From assembly GCA_021775655.1 (NCBI GenBank), contig JAJFHK010000185.1:1-17806 (forward strand): DNA of 17,806 nucleotides, written 5' to 3'. The notes under the pieces were generated by a model. The model worked only from the letters and a program-made list of their open reading frames with translations. It was not told where the DNA came from and made no database searches. A program made the position numbers and the translations under genes. Source of the stretch: Filomicrobium sp. GTDB lineage: Bacteria > Pseudomonadota > Alphaproteobacteria > Rhizobiales > Hyphomicrobiaceae. Of the stretch, positions 3,320 through 15,138 are shown in pieces (the first letter of the stretch is position 1; each line of letters starts with the position of its first letter).

Positions 3320-4300
3320 GTGATAAGGTATTGCGGACCGGATGCCAAGGGGGTGTCGAAGGGGGGCAGCGGTCGTGCTAAGGAGTTGCGCCCAATCATC
3401 AGCCGAACGAGGCCTTGTTTGTCTAAAGCGCTGAAGGAATACGAAGTCAGGCCGACGCCCGAGGATCCAGCACTGTCGCAATCGGTCAGTGGCATCGATC
3501 ACGAAGGCCGCGAGGTCGAGACGGTTGTCGTTACAGAACGGGCACTGACGCTGTTCTTGAACGGGCGCGAAATTGTCACCATGATGACGATTGGAGACCA
3601 TCCCGACTTATTGGCGGTCGGCTTCCTTCTGAATCAGGGGATGCTGCGCGACGATGACGAGATTATCGGGATCGACTACGAGGAAGACATTGCGACAATC
3701 GTAGTGCGGACGGCACGCGAAACGGACTACGAGGAAAAGCTCAAAAAGAAGGTGCAGACGTCCGGCTGCGCGCAAGGCACAGTGTTCGGTGACCTTCTTG
3801 AGAAACTCGACGGGATCAATCTTTGCAAAACGGCGCGGCTAAAAACGTCGTGGCTCTATGGGCTGTCAAAGAAGATCAACACCGAGCCTAGCCTGTATCT
3901 CAAAGCCGGTGCCATCCACGGCTGTGTTCTTTGCTCTGAGGACCGGCCGCTCGTCTATATGGAAGACGTTGGGCGGCATAACGCCATCGACAAAATCGCC
4001 GGGTACATGTTTCTCAACGACGTCGCGCCTGACGACAAAATCTTTTATACGACCGGACGCCTGACATCCGAGATGGTGATCAAGTGCGTGAAGATGGGCA
4101 TTCCGATCCTGGCATCTCGATCGGGTTTCACCGCCTGGGGCGTTGAACTTGCACGTGAAGCCGGGCTGACGCTGATCGGCCGAGCACGCGGCAAGCGCTT
4201 CGTGTGTCTATCAGGCGTGGAGCGCATTGAATTCGACGCGGATGCGAATGCAGTCGACGAAGAAGACAGCAAGCATCGACGGAAGGGGAGTGCGGGGTAA
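3320..4300 (+). CDS. fdhD: FdhD, sulfur carrier/sulfurtransferase for formate dehydrogenase maturation
   Basis: FdhD moves sulfur from a cysteine desulfurase to the bis-MGD cofactor and is needed for active FDH. Family hallmarks are EDVGRHNAIDKIAGYM (about residues 215-230) and TTGRLTSEMVIKCVKMGIPILASRSGF followed by AREAGLTLIGRARGKRF. The segment that is normally CxxC (usually SCGVCG-like) reads SGCAQGTV here: Cys150 is kept but the second cysteine is a glycine. A separate pair, Cys202 and Cys205 (HGCVLC), lies just before the EDVGRHN motif. The start is uncertain. GTG 3320 is the longest form and has no ribosome site; AAGGAG at 3380-3385 has no good start just after it; TTG 3419 would give a protein starting at LSKALKEYEV. 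It heads a plus-strand run with mobA and mobB. Confidence 0.92.
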   Translation: MIRYCGPDAKGVSKGGSGRAKELRPIISRTRPCLSKALKEYEVRPTPEDPALSQSVSGIDHEGREVETVVVTERALTLFLNGREIVTMMTIGDHPDLLAVGFLLNQGMLRDDDEIIGIDYEEDIATIVVRTARETDYEEKLKKKVQTSGCAQGTVFGDLLEKLDGINLCKTARLKTSWLYGLSKKINTEPSLYLKAGAIHGCVLCSEDRPLVYMEDVGRHNAIDKIAGYMFLNDVAPDDKIFYTTGRLTSEMVIKCVKMGIPILASRSGFTAWGVELAREAGLTLIGRARGKRFVCLSGVERIEFDADANAVDEEDSKHRRKGSAG

Positions 4301-4338
4301 ATGGATTGCATATGCGACGGCCACGGGAGTCGAGTGTA

Positions 4339-5970
4339 ATGCGAGTTCAGTCAAGAACATCATTCGCAATCGTCATTGCGCTAGGTCTTGCCGCCGCTAC
4401 GCCGCTGGCGTCGCACGATGAACGCAGCGAGGGCAACCTTACCGGGCATCCGGACGTGCCGCCGACCATCGCAAGCATCACCGCGAAGACGCGCGAAGCA
4501 TATCTCAACTCATTGATGTCGCCGTTTCGGCGTGCTGCAGGCGCAGACCTTGTGCTTGATCAGAGTGACATTGATGGCGCCCGACTTCGCCGGGAAGCTG
4601 CGACCCGCGCCGCGCGCGTGCAAAGCGTACTCAAATACGATCTTGACGGGGACGGGGTCGTATCCCGGGCTGAAATCGAAGAGGGCATGGCCCCCAGCAA
4701 ATCGTCGCGCGGATTTGCCGGACAAATTGAACGCATCATGGCGCAGGACGCCAACGGCGATGGCCGCATCGAAATCGCGGAAGTCCTCGCCGGGACGACC
4801 TCGGTCCGCCGGAATGCCACTCAGACAGACCGGCTCAAAGACTTACTTTCACTTGATCCAAATGTTGACGGCCGTCTCACCGGCAACGAACTCGAAGCGA
4901 TCGGCCAAAAGATCTTCGCTGCCTACGACAGCGATGGCGATGGATCAATTTCCGACGAGGAGTCGGCGCTCTGGCAGTTGGTGCGTCGAGAAGCCCAGAA
5001 TCGCGCGAAGGAAGAACCGACGGCCTCCGAACTTGCCGCATGCGATTTGACGGCTGTCGCTCCGGGGGTCGAAGTTTTGCTGGTCGGCTCCTACGGTTCA
5101 AAAGCGATTTCGAATGTCACGGTTGCAGGCCAGGACGAAACGACAGTGACAAGCGAGGTTTACATAGAACCAGGCAATAAGCCGCTTTTCATTGTCGCCG
5201 CAACAATGAAGCCGCGCATCTGGCGGTTCCGGGGAGGAACCGAACGTGTGACGCAGTTTGTCGCGTTGTCGGCTGGAACGAAGAAGACAGGCGCGCGTGT
5301 CGGTGTCGTTGGACTGCCGAAAGACCGAGTGAGATTTTTGGAGCCTGAAAGTTGCTTTCGCTACTTCACCGACGAGAAGCGCCCTGAAACCAACCGGGCA
5401 AAACGAATCGTTGAGATCAAGACCGGCCAGCCGGTGGTAAAATTAGTTGCAACCTACGATCTCACCGAAGTCGCGCTACCGTCGGGGATCACGCCGCCTG
5501 AACCCGACAGGGCAAGGCGCAGCCTTCGCGTGGTTATCGGCGAAACGGAATATGAAGTGCGCAACGGCAAACCGGTTCTCGTTGATCGCGAACCCGAAGC
5601 TGACAGGTTGCGTCCGGCGAGCGTCGACCCGGCGACCTACCGCAATTTTCGCCGCTTTTCCCCAGCCGGCGTCGTGGGCATCGAGCCCGACTTTGTCGTC
5701 TCGCCCAAGACGGTAGAGCGCTACGAGGTGCTTCCCGAATTTGCAGGGCTTGTGGAACTCCTCAAGGACGGCAGCCTGGAAACGATCTCAAATGGAGAAT
5801 ACCGGATCGTGAAGCCCATTGCTCGCTATCCTGCTGGTCTGAGCGGTGCGCTGGCGGTGAATTTCGTTCTTGCCGAAGGCGTGCCGGAACCAAAGGGATC
5901 GGCGGGCCACTCGTGCGTCAAGTCAGAGGCGACGAACAAGCCGCTGGCCAACTCCGGGCGCTGCCGGTAG
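4339..5970 (+). CDS. Secreted EF-hand calcium-binding protein with an unidentified C-terminal domain
   Basis: A 543-residue protein. ATG 4339 puts a clear signal peptide first (hydrophobic AIVIALGLAAATPL, likely cut near LAS), so it should be periplasmic. Four EF-hand loops follow: DLDGDGVVSRAE (about residue 101), DANGDGRIEIAE (about 137), a degenerate DPNVDGRLTGNE (about 173) and DSDGDGSISDEE (about 197). Three keep the full calcium ligand pattern. Residues about 230-543 resemble no family I know. That part is probably beta-rich and has four cysteines, two near positions 234 and 335 and two near the end (HSCVKS and SGRCR). It starts 38 bases after fdhD, so it is probably co-transcribed. An earlier TTG (4306) or ATG (4312) is possible but would hide the signal peptide. 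Confidence 0.8.
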   Translation: MRVQSRTSFAIVIALGLAAATPLASHDERSEGNLTGHPDVPPTIASITAKTREAYLNSLMSPFRRAAGADLVLDQSDIDGARLRREAATRAARVQSVLKYDLDGDGVVSRAEIEEGMAPSKSSRGFAGQIERIMAQDANGDGRIEIAEVLAGTTSVRRNATQTDRLKDLLSLDPNVDGRLTGNELEAIGQKIFAAYDSDGDGSISDEESALWQLVRREAQNRAKEEPTASELAACDLTAVAPGVEVLLVGSYGSKAISNVTVAGQDETTVTSEVYIEPGNKPLFIVAATMKPRIWRFRGGTERVTQFVALSAGTKKTGARVGVVGLPKDRVRFLEPESCFRYFTDEKRPETNRAKRIVEIKTGQPVVKLVATYDLTEVALPSGITPPEPDRARRSLRVVIGETEYEVRNGKPVLVDREPEADRLRPASVDPATYRNFRRFSPAGVVGIEPDFVVSPKTVERYEVLPEFAGLVELLKDGSLETISNGEYRIVKPIARYPAGLSGALAVNFVLAEGVPEPKGSAGHSCVKSEATNKPLANSGRCR

Positions 5971-5988: not shown

Positions 5989-6023
5989 TTGCGGTTGGCC
6001 AATTCCCCACTAGATTGCCGGCC

Positions 6024-6656
6024 ATGACCATTTCGAAAGACAAAATTGTCGGCGTTCTGCTTGCCGGTGGGCAGTCGCGGCGCATGGGCGGAGGCGACAA
6101 GGGCCTTCGCGAAATCGCCGGGCGGCCGATGTTGGAACACGTGCTGAACAAGTTTCGCGAACAGGTCGGCCGGGTTATCCTTAACGCCAACGGCGATCCT
6201 GCGCGCTTCTCGGCATTCGGGTTGCCTGTCACAGCCGACCCGATCGAGGGCAATGTCGGACCGCTTGCCGGTGTGCTTGCCGGTATGCGATGGGCTGCAC
6301 AGAACGAGCCTGGAGCGACCCACATTGCAACCGCATCGACGGACGCGCCGCTGATCCCAACGGATCTCGTCCAGCGCCTATCTGCAGCCCTAGTCGGCCA
6401 GTCTGAGAAAATCGCGCTGGCGAAATCGGGTGGATTCATGCATCCGGTGATCGGGCTGTGGCCAGTGGAGTTTGCCGACGACCTGGAGATAGCCCTGAAG
6501 GATGGCGTGCGCAAGGTGCTGCACTGGACGGACCGGCATGGTACGGTCGGTGTCGAATTCGAATTCGCCGCTTTTGGCGACAAATATATCGATCCGTTCT
6601 TTAACGCCAATACGCCCGAAGAATTCGACGAAGTGGCCGCCCTTCTGGCAGAATGA
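6024..6656 (+). CDS. mobA: MobA, molybdenum cofactor guanylyltransferase
   Basis: It transfers GMP from GTP to Mo-molybdopterin to make the MGD cofactor that FDH-type enzymes need; cytoplasmic. The N-terminal nucleotide-binding signature GVLLAGGQSRRMGGGDKGL (about residues 10-28) is textbook, followed by GPLAGVLAGM at 79-88 and the metal-site region STDAPLIP at 105-112. At 210 residues from ATG 6024 it has normal family length. A TTG at 6015 would add three residues; I chose the ATG because it sits closer to the conserved first strand. No strong ribosome site is visible. mobB follows after 39 bases. Confidence 0.95.
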   Translation: MTISKDKIVGVLLAGGQSRRMGGGDKGLREIAGRPMLEHVLNKFREQVGRVILNANGDPARFSAFGLPVTADPIEGNVGPLAGVLAGMRWAAQNEPGATHIATASTDAPLIPTDLVQRLSAALVGQSEKIALAKSGGFMHPVIGLWPVEFADDLEIALKDGVRKVLHWTDRHGTVGVEFEFAAFGDKYIDPFFNANTPEEFDEVAALLAE

Positions 6657-6695: not shown

Positions 6696-7298
6696 ATGAA
6701 GATAACAACTCCACATGGCGCGCCGATTATCGGGATCGCAGGCTGGAAGAAATCAGGCAAGACGACACTGACCGTCCGGCTGATTGAAACGTTCAGTAAG
6801 CGCGGGTTGAAAGTCGCTTCGCTAAAGCATGCGCACCATGCCTTCCAGATCGACGATGCAGGCACCGATTCTGCGCGTCACCGACGCTCTGGTGCTGCCC
6901 AGGTGGCTGTGGTGTCGGCGAAGAGATGGGCCATCATTACCGAACTTAATGGCGCGCCGGAACCGAATTTTGAGGAAGTGATCGCTGCATTGGAGCCATG
7001 CGACATCGTCATCGTCGAGGGCTATAAGTCGGCTGCCATCCCGAAGATCGAAGCGCGCAGATCAGCCTCGTTCACGAAAACGCCGCTTAGCGACGAAGAT
7101 CCGCTGGTCATCGCGATCGCGGCTGATCACACGGTGGACAATACGGCGCTGCCAGTGTTCTCACTCGACGACGTCGAAGGCATCGCCGACTTTATCAATG
7201 CGCAGCTCGGTCCATTGAATGGCGCTTGCCGCGAGGCCAGAACCGGCGTGTCTGCCGAGCGTTCACACGCCGAGGGATTGAGCGAGGAAAAGCAGTGA
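6696..7298 (+). CDS. mobB: MobB, molybdopterin-guanine dinucleotide biosynthesis GTP-binding protein
   Basis: A P-loop GTPase that assists MobA in MGD formation; it is not strictly essential in well-studied bacteria. Walker A is GWKKSGKT at residues 16-23. The family-typical KHAHHAFQIDDAGTDSARHR (44-63) and IVEGYK (106-111) follow. The length of 200 residues includes a tail of about 25 residues beyond the usual domain (ACREARTGVSAERSHAEG). Its TGA overlaps the GTG of the next gene (GTGA), so translation of the two is probably coupled. Confidence 0.94.
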   Translation: MKITTPHGAPIIGIAGWKKSGKTTLTVRLIETFSKRGLKVASLKHAHHAFQIDDAGTDSARHRRSGAAQVAVVSAKRWAIITELNGAPEPNFEEVIAALEPCDIVIVEGYKSAAIPKIEARRSASFTKTPLSDEDPLVIAIAADHTVDNTALPVFSLDDVEGIADFINAQLGPLNGACREARTGVSAERSHAEGLSEEKQ

Positions 7299-8200
7299 CA
7301 ACTATCGTGTCTTGGCGAACCGTTTCTGCCATTGCCGGCGCTGCTATCCTTGCCGCCGCGGCAATCGTGCCTGCGAGCGCTGCCGGCGATCCCCCCGTAC
7401 CACACGGCCTCGATCCTGGCGGCAATGCGATAGCGCTCATCAGCGATGGGGTCGACTATACTGATCCGGAAATCGCTGCGCGCCTTGCACGCGATGGCGA
7501 GGGCGAGCCAATTGCGCTTGACCTCATCGACGGCGACGTGCGGCCGTTTACGGCAGCAGATGTGGGCCGTGGAACGACGCTGGCGAAGATGTTGCTGTCG
7601 ACATACCGCAACAGCCGTTTGGTGGTTGTGCGTGCCGATCCCGAAGATGCCGGGTCGCTGGCACAAGCGGCCGTATTTGTGACCCGCACACCTTCGCGAA
7701 TTGCTGTTGTCGGATTTTGGGGCCACAGCAAGGAGACTTGGTTGCCGTTTTCTCAGGCCGTCGAGCAGGGCGGGAGAGTGCTCTTTATTGTTCCTGGAGG
7801 GGATGCTCGCGCTCGTGGCAGCAAATCCAATTTTCCAGCACAGCTCCGACCTGCCAATGTTCTTTCAGCTGCGCCGTTCGATCCTCCGGCCGATCAATAT
7901 GCTCCGGCGGTTGGCGACGATAACATTGATGCCTGGGTCGTGGCGGCAGGGGCCACCATGTTCGGCGCCGGCCAGACACAAGGACCCCGCGACAGCATCG
8001 AGGCCGCCGTGCTCTTGGCCGGTCAAGCCGGGTGTACGCTAGAAGGCACCGAGGTTAGCGCGCTCCCAAACGCTGCAAGTCTGAGAGCGGCTATTTTAAC
8101 GCAAGCACGAGCGATTGCCGTCAATGGCATCAGCGCGCATGTGCATGACCCTATGTGCTGGTATGGCGGAATTCGGTTCGGTGAGCCGGGCCGTTTTTAG
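7295..8200 (+). CDS. Secreted subtilase-like protein lacking catalytic residues (putative pseudoenzyme)
   Basis: A 301-residue protein starting at GTG 7295, with AGGA about seven bases upstream and a 4-base GTGA overlap with mobB. This start gives a clean signal peptide (hydrophobic 11-27, ASAA cleavage near 30). The mature part follows the order of subtilase (S8) blocks. IALISDGVDYTDPEI (46-60) resembles the Asp block, normally VIDTGVDYTHPDL. GRGTTLAKML (91-100) resembles the His block GHGTHVAG. GGRVLFIVPGGD (159-170) resembles the oxyanion AAAGN segment. FPAQL at 180-184 and the helix with DSIEAAVLLAG (about 233-243) sit where the GTSMAAP block belongs. Asp, His, Asn and Ser of the active site are all replaced. 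I infer a non-catalytic binding or chaperone role linked to FDH. The family assignment rests on my pattern reading only. Confidence 0.6.
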   Translation: MTTIVSWRTVSAIAGAAILAAAAIVPASAAGDPPVPHGLDPGGNAIALISDGVDYTDPEIAARLARDGEGEPIALDLIDGDVRPFTAADVGRGTTLAKMLLSTYRNSRLVVVRADPEDAGSLAQAAVFVTRTPSRIAVVGFWGHSKETWLPFSQAVEQGGRVLFIVPGGDARARGSKSNFPAQLRPANVLSAAPFDPPADQYAPAVGDDNIDAWVVAAGATMFGAGQTQGPRDSIEAAVLLAGQAGCTLEGTEVSALPNAASLRAAILTQARAIAVNGISAHVHDPMCWYGGIRFGEPGRF

Positions 8201-8250: not shown

Positions 8251-8646
8251 ATGCCTGACGATATCGACAACATGAACCGCAAGGCGCGGCGTGCGGCAGC
8301 CAAAACCGATGGCGCCGTCGACACGATGGCGTTTCTTAAGATCGCAGACAAATTCATCGACGTTGCCAACCGCGAAAACCAGAAGACGAAGGCAAGCGAA
8401 GTGCACATGGCGTTCCTATTTGCCGCCGCCCGTTATAATGCGCATGTCGCCAAGAATGTTTTCAACGTCGACAACCATGAGCAGTACGTCAAGGAAATGG
8501 CTGAGCAGTACATAGAGATGCTTCGCCAGCACCTGGGCGACGACACACTGGAAAAGAAGTCCGTGCAAGCTGAAGACTTTCTTGCGGACGCGAAGCCTGA
8601 AGATTTCCTCACAGATGCCAAGCCTGACGGCAACAGCAAAAATTGA
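8251..8646 (+). CDS. DUF3144 family small protein
   Basis: A 131-residue, probably cytoplasmic, helical protein. Residues 28-97 fit DUF3144: FLKIADKFIDVANRENQ, then VHMAFLFAAARYNAHVAKN and a C-terminal helix ending MLRQHLGDD. The family has no established function. The start is well supported by GAGGAG about six bases before ATG 8251. The tail holds an exact-register tandem repeat EDFLADAKP/EDFLTDAKP (108-125). It is the last plus-strand gene of the fdhD-mobAB run, 50 bases after the subtilase-like gene, which makes an FDH or cofactor maturation role plausible but unproven. Confidence 0.75.
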   Translation: MPDDIDNMNRKARRAAAKTDGAVDTMAFLKIADKFIDVANRENQKTKASEVHMAFLFAAARYNAHVAKNVFNVDNHEQYVKEMAEQYIEMLRQHLGDDTLEKKSVQAEDFLADAKPEDFLTDAKPDGNSKN

Positions 8647-8702: not shown

Positions 8703-9410
8703 CTATGTGCGTGACGAATTCGGCGGTGTCTCTGGGTCGCTTATTTCTGCGTCGTATTCGGCGAGCATTTCAGCTTCGTCCTGCTTGGCGGCTGCGGCGC
8801 ATGCTGCACCGGGGCCCGAGCTAGCATCGCCGGTTTCCCGATTGGCGATATTGGCAGCTTCGTCTCCAGCCGCAGCGCTCTCTGTTTTGGCCGCGGCTCT
8901 CGCTTCAGCGCGTCTTTCCTGCGCCTCGGCTTCCGCGACCTTCTTGGATTCCTGGCCGAGCGCTTCCCACTCGGCAACTTCGTCATCGTCCAAAAAGCCC
9001 CGCCCATACTGGTAGAGGGTCTTCATCGTGCCCTTGGGCAAGCAGACAGCGGCGTCGGTGTAATCCTCGCAGTAGTCGTCAAGGCCGTCCATGTTGGCCA
9101 GCACCGGATTCGACACCCACAGTTTACGCAGCGCCTTTTGCCGGGCTTCGGGAGTGACGTCCTTTTCCATGAATTGCTTGTAGTCGGAATCGTAATCGAG
9201 CTCTTCGAAATTGAAGTCGGCAAAGTCTTTTTCGGCGACGGGTTCGTCAGCTTCATTTCTATTGCGTGCAGTTTCCTCAGTCGCGGCGGCGTCTTCGCCT
9301 AGTGCTTCGCCAGCCGGATCGCCGTCGTGTTCTGTTCCAGCGTCCAGTCCGCGCTTTTTGCGTGACCACCGCTCCAGGAACGATCCCGAATCACGATTCT
9401 CTTCTTTCAT
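8703..9410 (-). CDS. DUF3306 family protein (FDH-cluster accessory)
   Basis: A 235-residue acidic cytoplasmic protein. It begins with the family opening SFLERWSRKKRG (about residues 10-21). An acidic low-complexity linker follows, then the conserved core LDYDSDYKQFMEKDV, RKLWVSNPVLANMDGLDDY and EDYTDA. The last 80 residues are Ala/Glu-rich and poorly conserved. DUF3306 genes are commonly found beside DUF3305 and FDH genes; their molecular function is unknown. The ATG overlaps the TGA of the DUF3305 gene (ATGA), so the two are translationally coupled. It is convergent with the DUF3144 gene, with 56 bases between the stops. Confidence 0.85.
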   Translation of the reverse strand: MKEENRDSGSFLERWSRKKRGLDAGTEHDGDPAGEALGEDAAATEETARNRNEADEPVAEKDFADFNFEELDYDSDYKQFMEKDVTPEARQKALRKLWVSNPVLANMDGLDDYCEDYTDAAVCLPKGTMKTLYQYGRGFLDDDEVAEWEALGQESKKVAEAEAQERRAEARAAAKTESAAAGDEAANIANRETGDASSGPGAACAAAAKQDEAEMLAEYDAEISDPETPPNSSRT

Positions 9411-10015
9411 TTGCTATCCCTGCGGCCGTTATCCATGCCGTGCCCGATATTCGGATTGGGGGTTGATGGGTTTCCATCGATTCGTTCACCCATACGTTCG
9501 CGCAACACGACGATCGACTCTTGGCCGAATTTATGATCTTCAGCGCGCAGATGGGGCTGGCGTTTGCGCTTTATGAAAGCCTCTTCCTTGTGATGTTCGT
9601 TTATGAAGGCGTGCACGATGTCGACAAGCTGCTCCGGCATCGCGACGCTTTCGACGTTATCGAGGCCGACATCACCGTGGGACTGAGCCTCGAACGGTGA
9701 AGCGGTCACGAGATGCACTTCGACTGGCCAATCGTCATCGGAATCGGGATCTTCACGCAACACCACGTAGACGGATGGTTCACCGTTGGCGAGATTCACC
9801 TGGTAGGCCGTCGTTTCCTTGCGAAAGAGTTCGAGATTTAGCGTTGCGGCATGATAAAGGACGGACTTGTCATCGCGCCGGAGCTCACGCCAATCCCTAA
9901 TCTGGGGAGGATCGAGGAATACACTCACCGCCCGCCAGCGATAAGTTTGCCATGGATGAGCAATCTTTTCGCGGGCTACGACGACGCCGACCGGGATTGA
10001 GAGGGCGGTGACCAT
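9407..10015 (-). CDS. DUF3305 family protein (FDH-cluster accessory)
   Basis: A 202-residue soluble protein from ATG 10015. The family core is visible as IPVGVVVAREKIAHPWQTYRW (about 7-27), then YHAATLNLELFRKETTAYQVNL (about 54-75) and PSVYVVLRE (80-88). The C-terminal third is basic and hydrophilic. AGGAG lies 11 bases before the ATG. Upstream GTG (10027) and TTG (10039) codons are in frame but less likely. It partners with DUF3306 in many FDH loci, and no biochemical role is established. It is divergent from the poly-ferredoxin gene across 174 bases. Confidence 0.85.
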   Translation of the reverse strand: MVTALSIPVGVVVAREKIAHPWQTYRWRAVSVFLDPPQIRDWRELRRDDKSVLYHAATLNLELFRKETTAYQVNLANGEPSVYVVLREDPDSDDDWPVEVHLVTASPFEAQSHGDVGLDNVESVAMPEQLVDIVHAFINEHHKEEAFIKRKRQPHLRAEDHKFGQESIVVLRERMGERIDGNPSTPNPNIGHGMDNGRRDSK

Positions 10016-10189
10016 GCCGTTGTTCACTCCTGCTACCAAATGTCGTAGACGTTAGTCTAACTCGAATTGCGACCCTAAGGGAATTCCTGGCGTCATAAAA
10101 GGATTTCCTCGATGCAATCTGCACAAATCCGCCCCCGCCAATGGTAGGTAAATCGTACCGGCCAACACACTCTGGAGACTGACGATTTG
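10016..10189. promoter_or_regulatory. Divergent intergenic region with short palindromes
   Basis: This 174-base gap must carry promoters for both the DUF3305/DUF3306 pair and the poly-ferredoxin gene. It contains the palindrome GTTAGTCTAAC (10051-10061), overlapping TAGAC-gtta-GTCTA (10046-10059). A nested pair follows: GGATTT (10101-10106) / AAATCC (10125-10130) around TGCA-atc-TGCA (10113-10123). These are candidate operator sites. I see no convincing -35/-10 pair. Confidence 0.35.
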
Positions 10190-12351: not shown

Positions 12352-12480
12352 TCAGTTGCGAACGTTTGAATTGACCGTGTAAGCGTTCTGGGAACTCTCT
12401 GACAGTACCGAGCTGACACCAAAAGCGGCAGCGGCGGTGATTACCACGAGTGCCACGATGCTGGTCATGAAAGCTTTCAT
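12352..12480 (-). CDS. 42-residue single-pass membrane peptide, last gene of the FDH operon
   Basis: A short frame from ATG 12480 to TGA 12352. It encodes a 42-residue peptide that starts MKAFMTSIVALVVITAAAAF, continues GVSSVLSESS and ends in SNVRN. Residues about 4-24 form one hydrophobic helix with a single N-terminal lysine, so it is either a membrane-anchored small subunit or an uncleaved signal-like peptide, with a polar C-terminus outside. Its ATG overlaps the TGA of the WD40/cytochrome c gene (ATGA), the arrangement seen in coupled genes, and this is the main reason to believe it is expressed. Small hydrophobic subunits often stabilise respiratory complexes; that role here is inference. 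Confidence 0.68.
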   Translation of the reverse strand: MKAFMTSIVALVVITAAAAFGVSSVLSESSQNAYTVNSNVRN

Positions 12481-13997
12481 TGTTTCGTTTCCTTATTGTC
12501 TTCTGCCGCAGGGGCAGTGTTGCCGTTTCCGGCTGCGGATGTTGTCTTAAGGTATGCGATCAGCGCATCGCGCTCGGATTTGTCGGTCATTTTCTGCAGC
12601 GGCATCTTCGATCCGGGTGTGAAATTTTCAGGGCCGAGTTCGAATAGCTTGGCGACTGTCTCTTCACTCCATACGATATCAAGATTTTTCAAAGAGTCCG
12701 AATAAGGATAACCTGGTAGAGTTGCTATCCGACGACCAAACAACCCGAAAAGTGACGGGCCGGCGCGGTTCTTCCCATCTTGTTTGAGTGTATGACAGAC
12801 GCTGCATTTTCGCGCGAAATGCGCCTGTCCCCTTGCGACGGGATCGTCGCTGTCAGCGGTGATCTGGAAGCGGCGGGGGTAAGGGCTCTCGATGTGTTCG
12901 AATGGTTCGCGGGGAGTAACAATCCAGCGCGTAACAAAGTCGTCAAGTCCTGCGAGATAAAGCGCAGCACCGCCCGGCGCGAAGGCTAGCCCCCATGCCG
13001 GGCCGTAGGGATTCTGGTATTCCTCGATCGGTTGAAAGTCGCCAAGGCGGAATACTTTGACCGAACCATCGCCGCTTCCCGTTGCGATAAGCCCCGGCTG
13101 TCGGGTGACGGCAAGCGCGAGAATCGGTCGCTCCGAATCGCCTAGTTCGGCAACTTTTTCACCGCTCGCAATCTCGACGACAGCAGCCGTCCCATTGAGG
13201 GCGCCAAAGACGAGTTGATCGCCATCTGGAAGACGCTTCAGGACGTTAATGCCCCAGCCGTGCTTATAGATCGGCCGTACGAACTGACCGGTTTTCGTCT
13301 CGAACATGCGGATCTGGCCATCGTAGCTGGCCGAAAATACGTGATTGCCGTCAGCGGAGAATGTAACGGCGTTGACTGGGCCCTGATGCCCAGCGAGCAC
13401 AGGGCCAGCTGTGCGCTCCTTGAGATTCCATAGTCGGGCGGATCGGTCCCAACTTGCGGTTACGGCCCATGTACCATCGTTTGAAACGGCGATGTCGACA
13501 ACCTTGGCGGTGTGACCTTCGAAACGGTGTTCGCGCTTTCCGTTATCGAGGTTCCAGATCGTGAGGATGGCGTCGTCGCCTGCGGCCAAAGCGAGGCGCG
13601 TTTCTGGTACGAATGCTGTCGCGTTAACGGCACCGTCATGTTCATCGAGGCGAAGCAGTTCCTTGGGATCATCGGCATCGGACAAGTCCCAGACCATCAT
13701 GGCATAATCGAAGCTGCCTGATAGCGCGAGCTGGCGAGCGTTGTCGGTGGCGACCACCTTCACTGGTCCGCCGTGACCGACGAGATTACCGCGATTGGTG
13801 GACCGACTATCGAGTTCGGCCGCTGTCCCAGCGGGCGACCTCCTGGCCGTATCAGCGGCGGCGGGGTCGGCGGCAAATGACGCATGTGGCGACCCAACAC
13901 CAAACGTCAACAAGCAAGCGACGAACACGCACGCAAGTCGCCGCAAGTCTTCGAGCGACTGTGCACGTACCATTGGCCAACCCATGCCGGCCACCAT
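12477..13997 (-). CDS. Secreted seven-blade WD40 protein fused to a cytochrome c domain
   Basis: A 506-residue protein from ATG 13997, four bases after the cytochrome b stop; ATG 13985 or 13973 are alternatives. A signal peptide (basic RRL, then CVFVACLLTFGVG, cut near SFA) sends it to the periplasm. Residues 70-360 hold seven WD40-type units, for example FEGHTAKVVDIAVSNDG ending SARLWNL, LAGHQGPVNAVTFSADG and a seventh ending VTRWIV. Residues about 385-485 are a class I cytochrome c: haem site CSVCH at 398-402 and axial Met465 in GSKMPLQ. The tail is polar and Ala/Glu/Lys-rich. Its place in the operon suggests it receives electrons from FDH or docks a redox partner. The domain calls are firm; the role is inferred. 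Confidence 0.9.
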   Translation of the reverse strand: MVAGMGWPMVRAQSLEDLRRLACVFVACLLTFGVGSPHASFAADPAAADTARRSPAGTAAELDSRSTNRGNLVGHGGPVKVVATDNARQLALSGSFDYAMMVWDLSDADDPKELLRLDEHDGAVNATAFVPETRLALAAGDDAILTIWNLDNGKREHRFEGHTAKVVDIAVSNDGTWAVTASWDRSARLWNLKERTAGPVLAGHQGPVNAVTFSADGNHVFSASYDGQIRMFETKTGQFVRPIYKHGWGINVLKRLPDGDQLVFGALNGTAAVVEIASGEKVAELGDSERPILALAVTRQPGLIATGSGDGSVKVFRLGDFQPIEEYQNPYGPAWGLAFAPGGAALYLAGLDDFVTRWIVTPREPFEHIESPYPRRFQITADSDDPVARGQAHFARKCSVCHTLKQDGKNRAGPSLFGLFGRRIATLPGYPYSDSLKNLDIVWSEETVAKLFELGPENFTPGSKMPLQKMTDKSERDALIAYLKTTSAAGNGNTAPAAEDNKETKQ

Positions 13998-14001
13998 CGG
14001 G

Positions 14002-15138
14002 CTATTCGGCTGGGGCCGGCCGTGCCGACGCGCCGCTGCCAGAATCCCCTTTGGCCAATTCTTCTTCGACCCACAGGCTATGGTGTTCCTTGGCCCAATT
14101 GATATCGACATCGCCGGAGCCCATGGCATCGAAGGCGCCCTCCATACCAATCGACCCGATGTAGATATGGGCGATGATGATGACGGTCAGAACGAGCGCC
14201 ATGATGCCGTGCCATGTCGTCGCCAACTGCTGTTCCTGGTTTGCCGTGAGTTGAGTTGGCAGGTCGAAGCCAAAGCCATTCAGGATTGCAAATGTTTTAG
14301 CGAAGAAGGCAAAATCGTACGGCAGCAACAGCTGTAATCCTGACAGGCAAAGCGACAAACCGCCGAGCATGACGGCCCAGAATATGATCTTTTGTCCGGC
14401 ATTGAATTTCTTTGCAGCCGGATGGGCGCCGCCGAACATTCCACCGCCCTTAAGGAACCAAACAATATCGCGCGGATGCGGGAAGTTGTACCAGACCCAG
14501 GTTACGAAAGTCATGACTAGGCCGACCATGAATGCAAAGGCGACGTAGTTATGTAGCCATTTGCCTGTCAAGGCTATCGAGGCAAACGCTTCCTTGCCGA
14601 TGATCGGCATCAGGACGTCGCGACCGTAGAGCACGTTGAGGCCGGTTAAAGCGAGGATGATGAACGAGGTTGCGAGCAACCAGTGACCCGTACGTTCGAA
14701 ATCGCTGAAACGCTCAATGGTGCGCCCGGCCAGGCCATGCTCGACGCGAATGCGTCCGCGCAACAAGAAGAACAATGCCAGCAGCGCGACTATGCCACCA
14801 AGGCCGTAAGCACCATACAGGGGCAATGGGCCGTTGCGCATTGCGCGCCAGGTTTCGCCCGATGAGTCGACAAGGACACCAGCTTTCTTATCGGGAATGG
14901 AGACAGTGCCTTGAACATTGCGACGGACCTTGTTCCACATCTCGATATCGTAGTTGCCGCCCTTGTCGGCTGCGATCTGAGGAGGTCCACTTGAGGTCGA
15001 GGCGCCTTCAGGAGGACGAACGTTCTGCGCATCGGCCGTACCAGCGAACCCGGTGAGCGCTACAAATGCCGTCAGCGCCGCGAACAAAACGCTCTTAAGG
15101 ACCGTTCTCATTGCCATCGTGTCCTGAGACCTCTTCAT
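14002..15138 (-). CDS. fdhC: Formate dehydrogenase cytochrome b subunit (gamma)
   Basis: The membrane di-haem b subunit that takes electrons from the beta subunit and normally reduces quinone. It has a signal peptide (about 11-37, cut near ADAQ), a periplasmic segment of about 65 residues, and then five hydrophobic spans near 105-127, 152-172, 195-217, 250-272 and 308-330. Candidate haem ligands are His152 (RTGHWLL), His196 (KWLHNY), His310 (TWHGIM) and His324 (IAHIYIG). At 378 residues it is longer than the E. coli FdnI form (about 217), because of the N-terminal signal, the periplasmic stretch and one extra span. AGGGAG precedes ATG 15138; an internal ATG eight codons in also has AGGA upstream. 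Confidence 0.94.
   Translation of the reverse strand: MKRSQDTMAMRTVLKSVLFAALTAFVALTGFAGTADAQNVRPPEGASTSSGPPQIAADKGGNYDIEMWNKVRRNVQGTVSIPDKKAGVLVDSSGETWRAMRNGPLPLYGAYGLGGIVALLALFFLLRGRIRVEHGLAGRTIERFSDFERTGHWLLATSFIILALTGLNVLYGRDVLMPIIGKEAFASIALTGKWLHNYVAFAFMVGLVMTFVTWVWYNFPHPRDIVWFLKGGGMFGGAHPAAKKFNAGQKIIFWAVMLGGLSLCLSGLQLLLPYDFAFFAKTFAILNGFGFDLPTQLTANQEQQLATTWHGIMALVLTVIIIAHIYIGSIGMEGAFDAMGSGDVDINWAKEHHSLWVEEELAKGDSGSGASARPAPAE

Follow-up and report, generated by a model that had tools for sequence, protein, structure and literature searches.

A predicted subtilase pseudoprotease, likely exported, encoded directly downstream of mobB in Filomicrobium and related bacteria

CspC of Clostridioides difficile has been described as a subtilase pseudoprotease of spore germination (PMC6636752), and the mycosin MycP of type VII secretion stabilises a membrane complex even though its protease activity is dispensable (PMC5082899), thus subtilase folds can serve without cutting. 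Inactive serine proteases are in general already known, since a survey of five families in 91 prokaryotic genomes counted 966 serine proteases, of which 42 were putative inactive homologues (PMC2605481). Here, we describe a protein of this kind, named SUB, that is encoded directly behind the molybdenum cofactor (Moco) gene mobB on a contig of Filomicrobium sp. (JAJFHK010000185.1, assembly GCA_021775655.1). The stretch analysed, hereafter the window, is this entire 17.8-kb contig (17,806 nucleotides), and the assembly measures 3.19 Mb and is 70% complete. An initial annotation of the window had proposed that SUB is a secreted, catalytically dead subtilase that acts as a binding or folding factor for exported formate dehydrogenase (FDH).

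The SUB family was analysed in a tree of 109 rows (106 different), comprising 28 rows in which the catalytic Asp, His and Ser are all kept (intact) and 81 in which they are not (dead), the latter divided into 44 core and 37 other rows. Residues were mapped with MAFFT against the intact relative L048, and with hhalign. The features of the mobA-mobB-SUB unit are as follows, all on the + strand.

6015..6656, +, mobA, molybdenum cofactor guanylyltransferase, gene 1 of the unit (NCBIfam TIGR02665, 203.4 bits, cut-off 151.85)
6696..7298, +, mobB, molybdopterin-guanine dinucleotide biosynthesis protein B (TIGR00176, 157.3 bits, cut-off 76.2; PF03205, 145 bits)
7295..7298, +, GTGA, mobB stop (TGA) overlapping SUB start (GTG), as read from the sequence
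7295..8200, +, SUB, exported-looking catalytically dead subtilase, 301 amino acids, GTG start
7295..7384, +, likely Sec-type signal peptide, residues 1-30, ending in ASAA, as read from the sequence
7442..7444, +, Ser50 at the catalytic Asp position (MAFFT, hhalign)
7481..7507, +, RLARDGEGE motif, residues 63-71, part of the block with the strongest conservation among core dead rows
7568..7570, +, Arg92 at the catalytic His position (MAFFT, hhalign)
7802..7804, +, Asp170 at the oxyanion Asn position (MAFFT, hhalign)
7994..7999, +, Ser234-Ile235 at the catalytic Ser position (Ile235 at the nucleophile place by MAFFT; hhalign gapped there)
8033..8035, +, Cys247, first member of a conserved pair (in all 44 core dead rows and 8 of the 37 other dead rows; 0 of 28 intact)
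8156..8158, +, Cys288 in the DPMCWYGG tail, second member of the pair (in all 44 core dead rows, split between two alignment columns with 32 and 12 rows; 0 of 28 intact)

The predicted structure of SUB is a subtilisin-type alpha/beta fold across the domain. A fold search and a profile comparison agree with this model, and hhalign matched a profile of dead members only to one of intact members only with probability 100 (E 8.6e-44). Intact-side members match PF00082, down to E 2.5e-27. In the Pfam search the window's SUB gave no PF00082 match, falling short of the gathering threshold, and 5 of 28 relatives matched that family at E 0.1 or better (best 4.3e-4). When the PDB was searched with the single SUB sequence, only AK.1 protease was retrieved at E 0.1, together with antibody chains. 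A chance resemblance to subtilases was rejected on the basis of the structure prediction, the fold search and the profile comparison, and the sole Pfam match of SUB, DUF3851 (E 0.13, below cut-off), was itself judged to be due to chance. The N-terminus is hydrophobic and appears in the model as a helix (residues 8-22) with a low predicted local distance difference test score (pLDDT); SUB is likely exported. Named-genome records that contain SUB belong to Filomicrobium, Hyphomicrobium and other Hyphomicrobiaceae, among them the cultivable Filomicrobium insigne with contig L101, and some are titled Rhizobiales or Devosia.

All three triad positions are substituted in this predicted fold, and the GTSMAAP-type serine motif is replaced by RDSIEAA. 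As a whole, the observation made in the initial annotation, i.e. the subtilase-type order of blocks, the substituted triad and the missing GTSMAAP, was borne out with two small residue corrections; for the oxyanion position, the loss of Asn was read correctly, and its replacement is not Gly but Asp170 by both methods. The loss extends over the family, as all three catalytic residues are missing from 77 of the 81 dead rows, and the other four (L052, P0021, P0026 and P0051) retain just the Ser of the Ser column. The oxyanion Asn is retained in 8 of the 81. With triad, serine motif and oxyanion Asn all substituted, the sequence would place SUB outside the active peptidases of family S8. Enzyme activity might in principle be kept by other residues, for example in a centre like that of the sedolisins (S53), in which the catalytic roles are filled by a Ser-Glu-Asp triad. 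The Foldseek list for the SUB model does include kumamolisin (sedolisin) chains, and Asp, which is the commonest letter at the oxyanion place in dead rows (24/81) and is found there as Asp170 in SUB, occupies this place in sedolisins as well. However, Arg stands in the His column of the window protein, and over the 81 dead rows this column shows 14 different letters or a gap, with Glu in only 4, whereas the Ser column holds Ser in 4. None of the His or Ser residues is invariant among 28 dead members, indicating that no conserved triad has been relocated elsewhere in the chain, and Glu69, which is invariant in these members, sits in the RLARDGEG loop. Relocated or sedolisin-like catalysis was therefore rejected, and we consider it scarcely credible.

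SUB is an open frame under purifying selection, with ratios of nonsynonymous to synonymous substitution (dN/dS) of 0.12-0.24 for frames with trimmed starts, which are rough values because dS is high (0.9-2.3). What is conserved in the core dead rows is foremost the RLARDGEG loop and not the His, Asn and Ser blocks. Conservation of block 61-72 amounted to 0.88 in 40 of the 44 core dead rows (near-copies P0006, P0007, P0014 and P0030 dropped) versus 0.64 in the 28 intact rows. RLARDGEG is near-invariant, a count that is inflated by homologue searching with shared words, and D76 and D81 are invariant in the 28 dead members. It could be argued that SUB is a relic that is being lost and persists only through its translation with mobB, since it changes faster than MobB, has been shortened repeatedly and is absent from 26 of 59 genomes searched. 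The dN/dS values, the cysteine pair in 44/44 core rows, the conserved loop with its two invariant aspartates, and the survival of SUB in five Hyphomicrobium loci without adjacent mobAB speak against this, and make such a relic very unlikely. In line with the initial annotation, a decaying pseudogene is likewise unlikely given the dN/dS, the open frames and the conserved cysteines. Judged from sequence and model, SUB would thus be a subtilase pseudoprotease, in which the fold is retained, the triad is gone and the gene is under selection.

SUB was present in 33 of the 59 genomes, the window's own included, and in 27 of these carriers it is the next gene after mobB, on the same strand. In G028 the preceding gene is mobA without mobB, and neither mobA nor mobB was seen near SUB within the fetched stretch in G021, G031, G035, G053 and G057. 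The linked copies are dead in 25 of 27 cases and intact in two (G051, G042), and G005 contains a second family copy, L064, that is unlinked and has an intact triad. A dead linked copy from another family of the order (L087) stands beside mobB, mobA, fdhD and Mrp. Among 35 named-genome loci found by the pattern RLARDGEG[EL], a set that partially overlaps with the 33 carriers, mobB is adjacent in 25, mobA alone in four and neither in six. The GTGA overlap with mobB, which was already pointed out in the initial annotation, has counterparts elsewhere: among the 28 linked loci (27 carriers and L087), a start candidate overlaps the mobB stop by four bases in 15 and by one base in three more, i.e. 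in 18 of the 26 that could be evaluated. MobB itself was found in 51 of the 59 genomes (50 over cut-off), indicating that SUB is not required wherever mobB occurs. A wider search of the order gave matches in 62 of 297 genomes, and since many weak ones are ordinary S8 proteases, these were not used for prevalence.

We also surveyed the position of moaA in L032-L064 and L095-L129. At five loci from Hyphomicrobium or near it (L114, L118, L119, L123, L125), mobAB is not adjacent to SUB and moaA lies ~2.3-2.4 kb downstream on the same strand. Downstream of the linked gene, moaA was found on the same strand within 3 kb in L034, L046, L048, L053 and L060, and at 6-7 kb in L049. Unlinked copies may therefore have remained at a Moco locus from which mobAB was relocated. 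Of note, a DsbB-like gene is located two genes upstream of the dead subtilase in L114 (3032-3679; PF02600, E 4.2e-11), L119 (2921-3568), L123 (2960-3592) and L125 (324-971), the last three assigned by look, which draws attention because of the conserved cysteine pair in the dead family. On the same contig as the G021 copy, a shortened dead member of 182 amino acids (L120, 4932-5477, +) is found beside a DUF2147 gene and ~1.7 kb from a formate-tetrahydrofolate ligase gene; tblastn with the window proteins and MoaA detected none of the remaining genes of the set at this locus.

We also examined the reading in which SUB is a periplasmic factor devoted to folding or stabilising the membrane-bound exported FDH encoded in the window. 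In its favour, FDH or FDH-accessory genes are neighbours of SUB in the window as well as in L032, L033, L035-L037, L039, L041 and L042, and some intact relatives (L059, L066, L073) lie near DUF3144, DUF3305, DUF3306 and FeS genes rather than near mobAB. FDH gamma (TIGR01583, over cut-off) was present in 23 of 33 carriers versus 9 of 26 non-carriers, a comparison that is uncorrected for kinship, and DUF3306 in 22 of 33 versus 8 of 26. However, FDH gamma was below cut-off or absent in 10 carriers, nine of them 94-100% complete and the tenth, G006, 67% complete, with its copy (L036) lying in an FDH accessory cluster, and DUF3306 was missing in 11. In five mobB-linked carriers that have neither FDH gamma nor NapA over cut-off (G012, G018, G020, G023, G025; 96-100% complete), 30 molybdopterin-oxidoreductase frames (PF00384) were examined, of which only L150 of G023 has a twin-arginine translocation (Tat)-like start, the other four genomes having none. 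This test was crude, as it looked for RR followed by a hydrophobic residue two places on, so that unusual Tat signals are missed, and the true start of L157 (G023) was not seen. The FDH-specific factor is weakened by these carriers, and we regard it as unlikely. SUB follows mobAB more closely than FDH. Hence, from the initial interpretation the pseudoprotease and its coupling to mobB stand, the latter for most carriers and not always, and the FDH-specific role does not in the form in which it was stated.

In the unrooted tree, the intact and dead rows are separated by one change (100/97). With seven canonical S8 proteins as outgroup, the intact rows formed one clade (100/95), in which L085 splits off first and the mobB-linked L050 and L048 follow early on; no mobB was seen near L085 in the fetched stretch. 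From the rooted tree 13 rows were omitted, including the long branches L087, L060, P0048, P0052 and P0045 and the near-copies P0007, P0006, P0014, P0030, P0038 and P0043, and L088 and L094 were moved to the outgroup. The simplest reading of these sequences is that the family probably descends from an active protease linked to mobAB, and that catalysis was lost in place, once or twice; since the placement of the dead, mobB-linked L043 before all other rows is weak (91/41), the tree fits one loss as well as two.

Another possibility is that SUB is a decoy or inhibitor that regulates a cognate active subtilase encoded elsewhere, as CspC does with CspB in Clostridioides difficile. A separate PF00082 protein over cut-off was found in 8 of 9 carrier genomes searched, and G005 has both a dead and an intact family member. 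Against this, G012, which is 99% complete, has no PF00082 protein, a six-frame PF00082 search of the window's assembly returned one match, below cut-off and on another contig, and no active partner is linked to SUB in the window. We therefore consider a decoy improbable. The explanation that we favour, and hold to be probable, is that SUB is an exported pseudoprotease derived from a subtilase, which binds and does not cut a putative partner; the predicted fold, the lost triad, the linkage, the selection, the cysteine pair and the conserved loop support it. SUB would be made in step with synthesis of the bis-molybdopterin guanine dinucleotide (bis-MGD) cofactor through its coupling to mobB, and be exported to the periplasm or the outer face of the inner membrane, where a Cys247-Cys288 disulfide may tie the C-terminal tail to the helix that lies behind the former serine. 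The surface bearing the RLARDGEG loop would bind the partner without cutting, and the descendants would have kept an ancestral binding role after the cut was lost. More tentatively, and with some doubt, SUB could be a so far unrecognised extracytoplasmic component of Moco or bis-MGD enzyme homeostasis, a former protease that is translated with MobB, lost its cut in place, gained a disulfide and uses the RLARDGEG loop to act on a periplasmic or membrane partner that need not be FDH.

Several findings weigh against this explanation. The basal position of L043, the inflated motif count and the rough dN/dS values were mentioned above. The case for export comes from the sequence. The absence of SUB from 26 of 59 genomes suggests that it is dispensable in places, replacement sites in SUB change 1.7 to 3.5 times faster than those in MobB, and several members are shortened to 182-264 amino acids. 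Both cysteines occur in only 4 of the 37 dead rows outside the core clade, and the Asp block is still conserved in spite of the missing Asp (0.82 in core dead, 0.77 in intact rows); these last two points lowered our confidence slightly.

The other features of the window are listed below. The labels FdhD, Mrp, FdhA and FdhB were assigned from sequence, and among the FDH subunits only gamma was identified by profile.

3320-4300, fdhD, label given from the sequence
4306-5970, +, EF-hand protein (PF00036, E 3.6e-12)
8174..8193, +, terminator-like hairpin with T tail, just 5' of the SUB stop (consensus scan only)
8251-8646, DUF3144 gene
8703-10039, -, DUF3306/DUF3305 pair, on the opposite strand to the mobAB unit
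also present, FDH genes and a protein that carries several 4Fe-4S domains
12477-14150, -, WD40-repeat protein (PF00400) with a cytochrome c domain at its C-terminus (PF00034), next to the FDH gamma gene
14056-14718, FDH gamma (TIGR01583)

The hairpin may end the mobAB-SUB unit; the consensus scan gave 6 terminator-like sites in the region versus a mean of 1.9 in shuffles. The EF-hand protein between fdhD and mobA has 554 amino acids, looks secreted and shows a weak lanmodulin match (E 3.5e-5, below cut-off), and a homologue with 52% identity occupies the same place in L042 and L107. The DUF3306 and DUF3305 genes share a four-base overlap (9407-9410), and a homologue of the WD40/cytochrome c protein is found in the same cluster of L032, L033, L035, L037, L039, L041 and L042.

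The SUB family is coherent and apparently undescribed, and its interest lies mainly in the position in a Moco operon and the probable loss of catalysis in place. Neither this family nor a subtilase tied to mobB is described among the matches listed by literature searches on subtilases and pseudoproteases in connection with mobB, Moco, FDH or the Alphaproteobacteria, or on the motif. Moco biosynthesis as known is cytoplasmic, and if our explanation is true, a conserved exported protein translationally coupled to MobB would extend it by a step or a sensor outside the cytoplasm. At one kind of locus, moreover, the family provides a natural series of triad-intact, triad-less and shortened proteins, with which one may ask what use is left for a protease that has ceased to cut, and raises the questions of what partner the RLARDGEG surface binds and whether the mobB-linked intact proteins cut that partner. 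DUF3305 and DUF3306 have been reported upstream of dmsD-fdhGHI operons, in an article whose main text does not contain the words 'subtilisin' or 'peptidase' (PMC4464133).

Compared to thermitase and AK.1 protease (S8, clan SB), SUB has a substituted triad and oxyanion residue, a cysteine pair and mobB as neighbour. Closer are the intact relatives in the same order (L048, L050, L054, L059, L063-L069, L071-L086) and P0054, which tree and profile place in one family with SUB. In these relatives D, H, N and S are all retained and the cysteine pair is lacking, and many have frames of 424-598 amino acids; L048 and L050 are mobB-linked like SUB, whereas no mobB was found in the fetched stretches of the others, P0054 being without context. 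CspC and CspA of C. difficile are, like SUB, non-cutting subtilase folds with triad-intact relatives, as outlined in PMC6636752. CspC keeps its Asp and lost His and Ser, whereas SUB lost all three, and has a prodomain, a jelly-roll insert and a role in germination, whereas the mature part of SUB starts at the catalytic domain and its gene lies in a Moco-synthesis neighbourhood, with no active family gene alongside it in the window. MycP, compared by fold only, differs in being described as an active serine protease and offers a precedent for a binding role of the kind that we propose for SUB (PMC5082899).
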